This document shows, one piece after another, positions 10,082 through 36,452 of a stretch of DNA of 38,633 nt. The notes under the pieces were generated by a model. The model worked only from the letters and a program-made list of their open reading frames with translations, ran no database searches and had not been told where the DNA came from. The stretch spans positions 1 through 38,633 of the forward strand of contig JACQDD010000232.1 of the NCBI GenBank assembly GCA_016201265.1. Direction: 5' to 3'. Numbering within the stretch: position 1 is the stretch's first letter; each line of letters begins with the position of its first letter. The translations under genes were made by a program, and so were the position numbers. Source of the DNA: Terriglobales bacterium (GTDB lineage Bacteria; Acidobacteriota; Terriglobia; Terriglobales; Acidobacteriaceae).

Positions 10082-10100
10082 AGTTCTCAATTCCGAACGA

Positions 10101-10199
10101 GCACTTAGCACTTAGCCGTTAGCACTTAGCCCACCCGAACCTTGTCAGCACGGGAGGGAGCCGCACTGGCTAAATGCTAAGTGCCAAGTGCTAATTGCT
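10101..10199. repeat. Inverted heptad-array pair between atpD and atpC
   Basis: The left arm (10101-10132) is built of AGCACTT-type heptads. The right arm (10168-10199) carries the reverse-complement forms GCTAAAT, GCTAAGT, GCCAAGT and GCTAATT. About 35 bp separate the arms, so the RNA can form a long imperfect hairpin. The right arm ends 4 bp from the atpD stop codon. Confidence 0.75.
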
Positions 10200-11655: not shown

Positions 11656-11942
11656 TCAAAACCAGCAATTAGCACTTGGCATTTGGCGCTTAGCTTGGAG
11701 CACTTTAGGTTTTGCTGAGTGCTAAATGCTAAGTGCCAAGTGCCGCTTCACGTCAAAACCAGCAATTAGCACTTGGCATTTGGCACTTAGCTTGGAGCAC
11801 TTTAGGTTTTGCTGAGCCCTAAATGCTAAGTGCCAAGTGCCGCTTCACGTCAAAACCAGCAATTAGCACTTGGCATTTGGCACTTAGCTTGGAGCACTTT
11901 GGGTTTTGCTAAGTGCTAAATGCTAAGTGCCAAGTGCTGCCT
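11656..11942. repeat. Three tandem copies of a 97-bp unit between atpG and atpD
   Basis: Copies start at 11656, 11753 and 11850; the third is cut a few bases short at the atpG stop codon. Copies 1 and 2 differ at about three positions by eye. Each copy has a left arm of AGCACTT/GGCATTT heptads, a centre containing CTTGGAGCACTTT, and a right arm of GCTAAAT/GCTAAGT/GCCAAGT heptads. Each copy can thus fold on itself. Confidence 0.92.
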
Positions 11943-12994
11943 CACAACGCTGCCGCCCCGCTCACAATCTCGATTATTTCTTTCGTGATCTTGGCTTGGC
12001 GCGCGCGGTTCATCACCAGCGTCAGTGAATCAATCATGTCTGACGCGTTATTCGTCGCCGAATCCATCGCGGTCATGCGGGCGGCGTGTTCGGCCGCCAC
12101 CGACTCCAGCAGCGCATGAAAAATCTGGATGCCGATGTACTTCGGCAGAATCTCGCGAAAAAGCTGCTCGGGCGGCTGCTCGTAGATGTAATCCACCTGC
12201 AAAGCGCCAAACTTCGCGGCCGCTTCATCCACGGCTTTCGTGTCCACGGGACGAACCCCCACTCCGGCTGACTTCGCGGCTTCTACGGCACGTTTGCGCT
12301 CTTCTTCTGCCGCCTCTTCGGCCATGCGCACATCCACTACGCCGATTTCCTTGATCGGCAACAGGTGCTGCGCAATCAGGCGCTGTGCGATGACTGACTT
12401 GAACTCGTTATATAGGATGTAAACGCCGTCAATCTCGCCGCGCGAAAAACGCTCCACCACGCTCCCGCCCAGTCCGGAAGCGAAGTTGAATTCCAGCTTA
12501 CCAAGGACACCTACGTGCTCGCCCACAATCTGCACCCGCCCGGCGCGCGGCCGAGTTTCTTCGGAAGCCGCTGCTTCGGGAGCCATGGGAAACCGCCGCC
12601 GCATAAAATCACGCCCCTTGCGGCCAATGCACTCGACGTCAATGTTCTTTTCCGCGTTCGACTCGATGAACTTGGTGACGATCTTCAGAATATTCGTATT
12701 GAACGCCCCGGCCAGCCCCTTGTCGCCGGTCACAACAATCAGCAGGATGTTCTTCTCCGGACGCTCCGCCAACAGCGGATGCCGCGGCTCTCCGGTAATC
12801 GGATCGTAGATATCGGCCCGTGCAACCAGGGATTTCAGGACGTTCGTCAGCATCTGCGAATACGGGCGCGCCGCCAGCGCATGTTCCTGCGCGCGGCGCA
12901 ACTTGGCCGCCGAAACGGTCTTCATGGCTTTGGTGATCTGCCGCGTGTTCACCACGCTGCGGATCCTGCGCCGGATGTCGAGAACGTTAGGCAT
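11942..12994 (-). CDS. atpG: ATP synthase F1 gamma subunit, with an extra charged segment
   Basis: This 350-residue rotor subunit is longer than the usual ~285-300. Both coiled-coil ends are typical: the N-terminal DIRRRIRSVVNTRQITKAMK and the C-terminal region ending in ARQAKITKEIIEIVSGAAAL. The extra length is mainly at about residues 218-266, a charged Ala/Glu/Arg segment (AEEAAEEERKRAVEAAKSAG) between the LLPI strand and the DYIYEQPPEQL motif, plus a smaller insertion near 136-155. The ATG is directly preceded by a heptad array, with no obvious Shine-Dalgarno motif. It lies between alpha and beta as in the canonical order. Confidence 0.96.
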   Translation of the reverse strand: MPNVLDIRRRIRSVVNTRQITKAMKTVSAAKLRRAQEHALAARPYSQMLTNVLKSLVARADIYDPITGEPRHPLLAERPEKNILLIVVTGDKGLAGAFNTNILKIVTKFIESNAEKNIDVECIGRKGRDFMRRRFPMAPEAAASEETRPRAGRVQIVGEHVGVLGKLEFNFASGLGGSVVERFSRGEIDGVYILYNEFKSVIAQRLIAQHLLPIKEIGVVDVRMAEEAAEEERKRAVEAAKSAGVGVRPVDTKAVDEAAAKFGALQVDYIYEQPPEQLFREILPKYIGIQIFHALLESVAAEHAARMTAMDSATNNASDMIDSLTLVMNRARQAKITKEIIEIVSGAAAL

Positions 12995-14621
<1,627 letters not shown>

Positions 14622-14635
14622 TCATGAAATGCGGG

Positions 14636-14716
14636 CACTCAGCATTTAGCACTTAGCCAGGACAGCTTGCACCAGAGGCTTTGGCCAAGTGCTAAGTGCT
14701 AAATGCCAAGTGCTAA
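14636..14716. repeat. Inverted heptad-array pair between atpH and atpA
   Basis: The left arm (14636-14659) uses GCACTCA, GCATTTA and GCACTTA heptads. The right arm (14692-14716) uses the reverse-complement forms and runs into the atpH stop codon at 14713-14715. About 32 bp separate the arms, so a hairpin in the mRNA is expected. Confidence 0.72.
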
Positions 14717-30055: not shown

Positions 30056-30112
30056 GGCGCCTTCTGAAGCGGCTATTCGATTCTAGCAGCTACCTGGAGT
30101 CCACGATTCTGA

Positions 30113-30178
30113 GAACTGGGAACCGGGAACTGAGAACTCGACGCGAACAGACGCGAACCACTAGCCACTAACCACTGC
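30113..30178. repeat. Heptad arrays at the 3' end of bfr
   Basis: 30113-30140 holds four heptads of the GAACTGG/GAACCGG/GAACTGA/GAACTCG type. 30157-30178 holds CCACTAG/CCACTAA-type heptads and contains the bfr stop codon (30168-30170). They belong to different heptad sub-families. Confidence 0.65.
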
Positions 30179-32117: not shown

Positions 32118-32147
32118 AGCACTTAGCATTTAGCACTTAGCAGTTGG
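32118..32147. repeat. Left heptad arm beside the four-helix-bundle gene
   Basis: AGCACTT, AGCATTT, AGCACTT and AGCAGTT occur in a row, then GGCTTGGAGC leads to the gene's ATG 13 bp later. The arm is the inverted partner of 32521-32554. The same CTTGGAGC follows the left arm inside each 97-bp unit at 11656-11942. Confidence 0.8.
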
Positions 32148-32160
32148 CTTGGAGCGCATT

Positions 32161-32526
32161 ATGAAAGACTTTCGCGATTTGCATGTGTGGGAAAGAGCTC
32201 ACAGACTCACCCTAAACCTCTACACCCTGACCGCCAGATTCCCCCGGGAGGAACTGTACGGCCTGACAAGCCAGATTCGCAGATGCGGAGTTTCCATCGG
32301 CGCGAACATCGCCGAGGGCTGCGGGAAGACAGGCAACAACGAATTTCAGCGTTTTCTTCAGATTGCGGCCGGTTCCGCAAGCGAATTGGACTACGAATTG
32401 TTGCTGGCCAAAGACCTTGGCTATTTGGTCACCGCCGAATACGCGAAGCTTTCAGACGAACTCTCGCAGATCCGGAAAATGCTGAGCTCTCTACTGCGAA
32501 AAGTTCAAATGGACCGAAAGGGCTAA
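32161..32526 (+). CDS. Four-helix-bundle protein, S23/IVP family
   Basis: This is a 121-residue cytosolic protein. The family opening KDFRDLHVWERAHRLTLNLY, the middle part LTSQIRRCGVSIGANIAEGCGK and the following FLQIAAGSASELDYELLLAKDLGYL match the four-helix-bundle proteins first found in intervening sequences of spirochaete 23S rRNA and related to the Avd proteins of diversity-generating retroelements. Biochemical function is not established. Here it is not in an rRNA gene but between PilZ and mrdA. It is bracketed on both sides by inverted heptad arrays, and its TAA stop lies in the first right-hand heptad. ATG 32161 is chosen at the family N-terminus. Confidence 0.93.
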   Translation: MKDFRDLHVWERAHRLTLNLYTLTARFPREELYGLTSQIRRCGVSIGANIAEGCGKTGNNEFQRFLQIAAGSASELDYELLLAKDLGYLVTAEYAKLSDELSQIRKMLSSLLRKVQMDRKG

Positions 32527-32554
32527 CTGCTAATTGCTAAGTGCTAATTGCTAG
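32521..32554. repeat. Right heptad arm beside the four-helix-bundle gene and mrdA
   Basis: GCTAACT, GCTAATT, GCTAAGT and GCTAATT occur in a row, ending GCTAG. The arm supplies the TAA stop of the four-helix-bundle gene on the plus strand and the TAG stop of mrdA (32551-32553) on the minus strand. Confidence 0.82.
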
Positions 32555-35477: not shown

Positions 35478-35481
35478 AGCA

Positions 35482-35654
35482 GTCGCTGGTGGCTAGTTGC
35501 TGGTCGCTAGTCTTAGTAACGCCGGCGCCTCGCCGGCTGTCTCGCGGGCACCCTGCCCGCGCTCCGCTCGCTGTCAGCCCACATCCACAGCACAACACAA
35601 TTGCCTTCGCCTGTCTGTTAACGACTAGCGACTAGCCACCAGCGACTAGCGACT
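35482..35654. repeat. Heptad arms enclosing two perfect hairpins
   Basis: Left arm 35482-35512 (GTCGCTG/GTGGCTA/GTTGCTG/GTCGCTA) and right arm 35621-35654 are inverted copies sharing a 15-base exact match. Between them sit two perfect seven-base-pair hairpins: GCCGGCG-CCT-CGCCGGC (35521-35537) and GCGGGCA-CCC-TGCCCGC (35544-35560). There is no T-run, so it is not a standard terminator. Confidence 0.8.
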
Positions 35655-35691: not shown

Positions 35692-35781
35692 CCGCTGAGG
35701 CGACTCCATGACCGACCCGCGCTATCCAATCGGCAACCGCTGAGGCGACTCCATGACCGACCCGCGCTATCCAATCGGCAA
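35692..35781 (+). repeat. Exact 45-bp tandem duplication over the DinB start region
   Basis: The unit 35692-35736 is repeated at 35737-35781 with no visible difference. It carries the GAGGCG ribosome site, the ATG and the first nine codons. The first copy's ATG (35708) runs only 11 codons before a TGA created at the copy junction, so it forms a short upstream reading frame before the true start at 35753. Confidence 0.93.
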
Positions 35782-36281: not shown

Positions 36282-36449
36282 GCAGGAAAGCAGGTTGCAG
36301 GTTGCAGGTTGCAGGTTGCAGGTTGCAGGTTGCAGGAAGTAAACAAATCAAAGGATCAGGTCGTCAAGGGGAAACGCGATTCGCATCATTCGCCGATGCC
36401 GAAGAGACACTCGGTTTTCCTGCCACCTGCCACCTGCGACCTGCCACCT
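36282..36449. repeat. GCAGGTT heptad array and its inverted partner
   Basis: GCAGGTT is repeated six times without error at 36290-36331, with GCAGGAA on each side. The inverted partner (CCTGCCA/CCTGCGA heptads) is at 36417-36449 and ends 3 bp from the ydcF stop codon. About 78 bp separate the arms. This is the most regular array in the window. Confidence 0.92.
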
Positions 36450-36452
36450 TCT

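Follow-up and report, generated by a model that had tools for sequence, protein, structure and literature searches.

A four-helix-bundle (S23/IVP) gene enclosed by inverted heptad arms looks like a very small mobile element of bacteria

Our analysis indicates that an S23/IVP gene, together with the inverted arrays of seven-nucleotide repeats that enclose it, looks like a mobile element of about 480 bp and may represent an overlooked family of very small ones. The gene was found in a stretch of 38,633 nucleotides (the window) from a Terriglobales bacterium whose genome, G000, is a 2.93 Mb draft that is 76% complete. The first-pass annotation of this DNA had raised the possibility of a compact mobile unit, and the genome and plasmid comparisons support it well through empty sites, relocated and flipped units, and arms that appear specific to S23 genes. 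The observation itself was confirmed, and the evidence supports a mobile-unit reading that is widened well past this locus. We give a probability of roughly 0.6 to the complete reading, in which the element is compact and mobile, the S23 protein would bind the arms, host enzymes would do the copying, and the IVS of 23S rRNA would be the same element placed in an rRNA gene.

The gene product matches the PF05635 profile (E 6.3e-39, 132.9 bits, curated cut-off 33.8) and the TIGR02436 profile (E 2e-38, 130.9 bits, curated cut-off 24), and the two arms are 92% complementary over a 24-nt stretch, the right arm being a 7-nt tandem array (Table 1); the identification of an S23/IVP gene between inverted heptad arms was thus correct. 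The annotation had further remarked that the gene fills the space between the arms and stands alone among unrelated genes. Both remarks hold: only 13 nt (32148-32160) lead from the left arm to the ATG, the TAA stop codon falls within the right arm, and the unit is flanked by a PilZ-domain gene on the left and by a penicillin-binding protein 2 (PBP2) gene on the right, which faces the S23 gene and also has its stop codon within the right arm. S23 is the sole gene between the arms, and no recognisable transposase is found there. In the predicted RNA fold the two arms pair together and close the whole element, leaving the S23 reading frame in the loop. The locus has an arm score of 42, and since a score of 30 is attained by few control ORFs and segments, the arms are confirmed to lie beyond chance. 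The gene is under purifying selection, with a pN/pS of 0.17 against its counterpart in genome G012 and of 0.07-0.22 for the S23 protein across 16 tested pairs, in which dS is often saturated.

Table 1. Heptad arms, S23 gene and gene-less heptad arrays in the window
Feature	Position	Strand	Remarks
Gene-less hairpin beside atpD	10100..10199		Word TTAGCAC
Three tandem 97-bp gene-less hairpins, atpG-atpD spacer	11656..11945		S23-arm word TTAGCAC
Two arms in atpA-atpG spacer	12998..13082		TAGTCGC (word of the C256 S23 element) and TTAGCAC
Gene-less hairpin beside atpA	14640..14716		Word TTAGCAC
Single array	30109..30138		AGTTCTC (word of the C130 S23 element)
Left heptad arm of S23 element	32118..32147	+	Word TTAGCAC, about 4 units
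13-nt leader with ribosome-binding site TTGGAG	32148..32160	+	Equals CTTGGAGC of the first-pass annotation
S23/IVP four-helix-bundle protein gene, 121 aa	32161..32526	+	PF05635/TIGR02436; stop inside right arm
Right heptad arm, inverted copy of left arm	32522..32553	+	
Inverted arms	35481..35654		TAGTCGC (word of the C256 S23 element); word match listed for right arm only
Inverted arms	36285..36452		GCAGGTT/CCTGCCA (word of the interrupted S23 gene, C295)

The check proposed in the annotation, namely whether such arms recur at other copies of the gene and are commoner there than elsewhere, was run: S23 genes elsewhere have such arms too, and other genes have them far less often. Among the matches listed, PF05635 is present in at least 48 of 61 genomes, G000 included. 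We read 80 S23 loci, 11 from G000 and 69 from its relatives, taken in list order to an E value of about 1e-34; this set leaves out four loci near contig starts and the relatives' weaker matches, and an ungapped left/right arm score of at least 30 was used as the rule for the relatives' set. Strong inverted arms were found at 68 of the 80 loci; the other 12 score below 30, and clear arms are missing at L012 and L074. In control DNA from G024 and G000 the same score is attained by 8 of 392 other ORFs and by 2 of 949 random segments of 315 bp, and when left and right flanks of different S23 loci were mismatched, 51 of 1500 pairs reached a score of 30. The rate at S23 loci greatly exceeds that of the control ORFs, the segments and the mismatched flanks; therefore the arms are specific to S23, and their words are largely specific to locus or lineage. 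In G000 there are 12 PF05635 matches, which we read as 11 genes since two of them overlap on contig C295. Inverted arms accompany 10 of these 11 genes, nine of which reach a score of 30 (the gene on C12 scores 25), and at the C236 gene a heptad array flanks just one side. The arm words differ within the genome (AGTTCTC on C130, AGTCGCT on C256, GTGGTCA on C285, CAGGCTT on C12), the close paralogues on C16 and C93 share the word AGAAGTC, and the arms on C111 and C202 have a period of 8. Loci with an 8-nt (or 9-nt) arm period instead of 7 are L017, L018, L076, L103 and L113, and at L321 and L348.

The S23 gene turns out to lie between inverted arms in most bacterial groups examined. The cross-phylum set consisted of the best 80 of 582 confirmed S23 candidates, found via one peptide pattern, and a locus was accepted with a score of at least 28, or of at least 20 plus a period of 7-9 in 15 of 21 positions. 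By this looser rule 64 of the 80 loci pass, against 4 of 146 control segments from the same loci; a score of at least 28 alone is reached by 50/80 loci, 2/146 controls and 19/800 mismatched flank pairs. Judged by record title, and with many MAGs among them, the loci belong to Acidobacteriota, Bacteroidota (21/30), Planctomycetota, Chloroflexi and Verrucomicrobiota, and also to proteobacterial groups, Cyanobacteria, Ignavibacteriota, Nitrospirota, Patescibacteria and others. S23 matches were obtained in 27 plasmid records and in one phage record, and all 10 plasmid loci that were read, 8 of them independent, have arms. On plasmids the elements adjoin unrelated genes, for example cas6/cas4 and nrdB/nrdA; the former case (L351, a Pseudanabaena plasmid), where the S23 gene stands between cas6 and cas4, has very long heptad expansions on either side. 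The window unit and nearly all others examined lie outside rRNA.

The heptad word differs from one S23 lineage to the next, is common to both arms and follows the frame (T)YAGYTN, repeated 4-5 times. Among loci with a score of at least 28, the median is 4.4 units per arm (interquartile range 4 to 5.3) in 178 period-7 arms and 4.5 in 20 period-8 arms. After rotation, 174 arms from 98 loci align to the common frame A-G-Y-T-N-T-Y read inwards, with G conserved at 98-99% and A at 84%; position 5 is free and takes about a third (245/751) of the within-arm deviations. The information in this frame is about 4.9 bits, compared to a null mean of 2.4 and a maximum of 2.6 in 20 runs. Read inwards, AG exceeds CT in the left arm at 52 relatives' loci against 12, with 6 equal, and at 38 cross-phylum loci against 5, with 7 equal. 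In both sets the S23 stop codon is inside the right arm at about half of the loci (34/70 and 25/50).

Similarity of the words tracks protein identity (Mantel r 0.42, reached in 0 of 2000 permutations), in a test where 23 of the 29 closest pairs sit at homologous sites. At one orthologous site in six species the word is AGCTNTC in four and AGTTNTC in two, and most heptads of both arms differ accordingly. The same kind of two-arm change, TTAGC to TCAGC, is seen at the PilZ site, the orthology of which is based on the left flank and on moderate tree support (90/85 for the grouping of L003, L105 and L092, in an alignment with 12 wrong-strand rows that formed a false clade and included none of these three). 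These sites show both arms keeping one word while the word itself changes over time. The leaders of 11 of 70 relatives' elements, L014, L015 and L016 among them, contain a CRP/FNR-like palindrome, GTGA-N6-TCAC; it is absent from 280-nt stretches outside the left arms of those relatives. It was rejected as a part of the general element and regarded as a local feature, since it occurs in 0/50 elements of the phylum set.

Empty sites, which the annotation had suggested looking for, exist in a relative's spacer, on cyanobacterial plasmids and in Azospirillum 23S rRNA. The PBP2-PilZ spacer is empty in G019, and G000, G012 and G004 carry the S23 unit beside PilZ. Trichormus plasmid C, compared with plasmids of Aulosira and Nostoc carneum at 96.5-98.2% identity, carries a cleanly bounded insertion some 420 nt long, which has GTAAT on either side (L354). 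At three more empty sites of cyanobacterial plasmids (L353, L349 and L358; about 85-95% identity) the inserts lie between neighbouring genes and displace about 2 to 13 nt; for L353 three comparisons disagree, leaving the target-site duplication ambiguous. On plasmid AZO_p2 of Azospirillum lipoferum 4B an S23 unit is inserted within the 23S rRNA, where it replaces a 15-17-nt stem-loop kept in A. ramasamyi and strain B510 (95.5-99.7% identity). An Rfam LSU match spans this insert. On a second replicon of A. lipoferum 4B the flanking sequence aligns as two separate pieces (86% cover), the pattern that an insert-free copy would give, and the word of the unit, GACRGAN, is found at only one other place on AZO_p2. 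Thus one of the five empty-site comparisons has a clear target-site duplication (GTAAT, L354), L353 is ambiguous and the other three have a short replacement (about 10-17 nt).

Units of close kinship are also found in different surroundings and orientations. L009 (C130) and L085 have common flanks, and L052, L054 and L086 have another common set; across these two groups protein identity is 79-91% and the arms hardly differ, and the flanks have no homology except one 33-nt match. Within G000, L015 and L016 have one word, 82% protein identity and unrelated flanks. Six pairs combine a protein identity of at least 80% with non-homologous flanks; every one of them has a common word, and together they represent about two independent events. 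Two units are flipped, L054 when compared with L052 and L086, and L059 when compared with L050 and L067; in either case both flanks align to the opposite strand. Taken together, the comparisons show gene and arms inserted, relocated and inverted as one unit. A PmbA/TldD-type gene stands beside the S23 element in G012 (by sequence also in G004) and is located at C230:17123-19459 in G000, and the right arm of the window element (32551-32553) seems to be the place of a rearrangement breakpoint.

Heptad arrays also occur without the gene. Period-7 arrays number 36 in 389 kb of G024 and 19 in 198 kb of G000 (the window and S23 arms included), far above the 0-3 arrays found for each of the periods 4-6 and 8-12 in the same scan. 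Away from S23 genes, 24 of 28 arrays of G000 (a count in which some arrays belong to the same hairpin or to tandem units) find a match among ten resident elements, compared to 9.8 on average and 23 at most for random ten-element sets from other genomes (2000 draws). In G024 the corresponding figure is 11/38 (mean 3.2, maximum 13), and in G030 2/11 gene-less arrays match, no better than with foreign elements. The link of gene-less arrays to resident S23 words is therefore good in G000, moderate in G024 and absent in G030, and the earlier proposal that gene-less hairpins belong to the same system stands to just this extent. Array density that depends on S23 was rejected as a simple rule: 2 arrays, both in one G057 hairpin, occur in 227 kb of S23-less DNA versus 13 in 400 kb of S23-bearing DNA (P 0.051), and G030, with nine S23 matches, has only 6 arrays in 354 kb, against the rule; pooling with G024 and G000 gives a P of 7e-5, in a pool that includes the S23 loci and the window. 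G057 has no PF05635 match and yet carries the heptad hairpin AGTGGTC (L246), explicable by an S23 gene that was lost or left out of the assembly.

The narrower proposal, that the 97-bp units between atpG and atpD are deletion derivatives of this gene, could not be confirmed. As had been noted, CTTGGAGC has one copy at 32148 and one in every 97-bp unit; its 4 exact copies in the window, three of them in tandem, compare with 1.94 expected, and 14 of 100 shuffles reach 4. It is not significantly enriched and is the ribosome-binding site before the ATG, and it was rejected as a mark of shared descent; TTGGAG-type sites are also present 5' of the start codons of S23 genes on C130, C256 and in G012. 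The loops of the gene-less hairpins that we examined differ from one another, hence the hairpins are not simple recent copies, and inspection by eye of the TTAGCAC-family loops revealed no S23 coding remnants. The 65 BLAST pieces of the 97-bp unit fall at no fewer than 39 places in G000, with 40 of 58 candidates scored. One counterpart with a similar loop occurs in the same spacer of G004, a genome with a TTAGCAC hairpin between atpG and atpD and yet with TCAGCAC in its PilZ-site element (5 of its 9 matches were read). A perfect 2 x 45-bp tandem repeat was also noted at 35692-35781 of the window.

Five chains make up each of the two nearest solved structures, 2gsc (E 9e-19) and 2rld (E 2.4e-8), and the available text of PMC4990558 describes the Xanthomonas one as a toroidal homopentamer. 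We propose that such a ring would bind the arms of its own element with one subunit per heptad (YAG every 7 nt); the match of a five-fold ring to the 4-5 units per arm is suggestive only. The target may be the RNA hairpin of the element, or single-stranded DNA. Binding would mark arm-bounded hairpins (the element, and gene-less units that have its word), and host enzymes would copy the marked hairpins into new places; an element landing in an rRNA helix would be seen as a 23S rRNA IVS. Recognition of the arms by S23 in one of these two forms, with copying left to the host, is in our opinion the most likely course, and to our knowledge S23 has no catalytic or nuclease activity of its own.

It could be argued that S23 is chiefly a regulator: the ring would bind YAG heptads in mRNAs, the hairpins of operon spacers would be its targets, its own arms would serve autoregulation, and movement would be slow and not caused by S23. 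The TRAP ring, for comparison, binds NAG repeats. The purifying selection on S23, the gene-less hairpins that fill operon spacers such as atpA-atpG-atpD and the stop codons within the right arm at about half of the loci all agree with such a role, as do the TAACTGA repeats of one Beggiatoaceae genome, which according to the accessible part of PMC4679880 lie mostly just 5' of start codons and whose complement, TCAGTTA, fits the frame. However, species of one genus carry hairpins with different words, or none, in the atp spacers (two spacers were compared), which fits poorly to conserved regulation, and elements are also located in an rRNA gene and, on plasmids, between such unrelated genes as cas6/cas4 and nrdB/nrdA. 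Thus it is unlikely that regulation is the chief role of S23.

Another enzyme, either a Y1/REP-associated transposase or a reverse transcriptase, could instead move the heptad hairpins with S23 as mere cargo. Y1 transposases are present in 52 of the 61 genomes, the hairpin doublets resemble the REPINs described in PMC3116915 as far as its available text goes, and Avd, an S23 relative by a family similarity that stays below cut-off, belongs to a system of the required kind. Avd works together with a reverse transcriptase. Nevertheless, RVT_1 matches are absent from G024, G030 and G058 (7, 9 and 10 S23 matches), drafts of 89-96% completeness that may miss genes, with a profile that may miss divergent reverse transcriptases; in G000 the RVT_1 matches are on contig C186, away from the window. 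Likewise, Y1 (PF01797) matches are absent from G037 (4 S23 matches) and G053 (2), both 98% complete and with armed S23 elements. A reverse transcriptase in trans and a Y1 transposase were both rejected as requirements on these grounds. Cargo would also leave unexplained that the words follow the S23 lineage and that most gene-less arrays of G000 match resident arms, and we consider it rather improbable. That the arms are ordinary intergenic hairpins (terminators or slippage-made repeats) in places which S23 genes tolerate or prefer is scarcely credible and already hard to keep: the window arms are intergenic and fold well, and heptamers are over-represented among the simple repeats of many bacterial genomes (PMC4692102, available part), but such arms occur at just 8/392 other ORFs and 4/146 control segments, belong to the inserted unit at empty sites and have a word common to homologous units at other places.

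We therefore return to the mobile S23 element with host-assisted copying. A more general possibility, which we put forward tentatively and at somewhat less than even odds, is that S23 genes across bacteria may form the core of an unrecognised class of recombinase-less elements of about 480 bp, in which the homopentameric S23 ring would read a lineage-specific heptad code in its own arms and drive the spread of arm-bounded hairpins by means of host enzymes. The association of S23 with the arms yields a direct hypothesis, that the ring binds heptads, and the element offers a single origin for several unexplained repeat families; if true, the IVS, the orphan four-helix-bundle genes and the heptamers of Xanthomonas, cyanobacteria and Beggiatoaceae would be explained together. 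Counting the genes annotated as 'four helix bundle protein' would then amount to counting elements, and genome biology would face a new kind of question in an element that moves without a known recombinase and whose two ends change together. No general link between S23 and heptad arms was found among the literature matches listed, a coverage that excludes subscription journals and preprints.

The element differs from a MITE or a classical transposon by the lack of a recognisable transposase between its arms. Similarity to Avd of the diversity-generating retroelements is distant (NF033474, E 1.2e-4, 22.4 bits where the cut-off is 80; PF22296, E 3.6e-5; both below the curated cut-offs), and Avd systems differ in that several S23-rich genomes (G024, G030, G058) have no RVT_1 match. 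There is also a likeness to the REPIN/RAYT system, in the accessible text of PMC3116915: short inverted hairpin doublets lie in intergenic DNA with variable spacers and are matched by word to resident genes in G000, partly in G024 and not in G030. In contrast to that system, a four-helix bundle takes the place of the REP-associated tyrosine transposase, the arms are 7-nt tandem arrays and the gene is inside its own arms. The Xanthomonas heptamers GGGANTN (PMC4692102) are mostly four per array, with positions 1-4 and 6 conserved and many inverted pairs, and TAACTGA of Beggiatoaceae and cyanobacteria (PMC4679880) has units of the same 7 nt and fits the S23-arm frame on its other strand. The main texts of these two articles lack the term S23, and their available parts propose no carrier element for the heptamers.

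A further close counterpart is the IVS. As far as the available text of PMC4990558 reports, S23/IVP proteins occur widely and have been assigned no function, and a suggestion of 1993, cited there, held that the IVS is a mobile element with the ORF as its mobility component. In the Coxiella IVS the S23 ORF is preceded by GACAGAT heptamers in tandem and the ends form a stem of 28 bp, and the same text argues that its S23 protein is probably not made and that the ORF is decaying; lineage-specific words and gene-less relatives are not part of that description. The window element differs from the IVS by its position between the PBP2 and PilZ genes, and not within 23S rRNA. Nevertheless, the IVS of Coxiella and Leptospira (PMC4990558) has the same architecture as the window unit, an S23 ORF in the loop of a hairpin with terminal inverted repeats, and the GACRGAN word of the Azospirillum 23S rRNA unit fits the GACAGAT of Coxiella. 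The IVS of 23S rRNA hence looks like one placement of the S23 mobile element.
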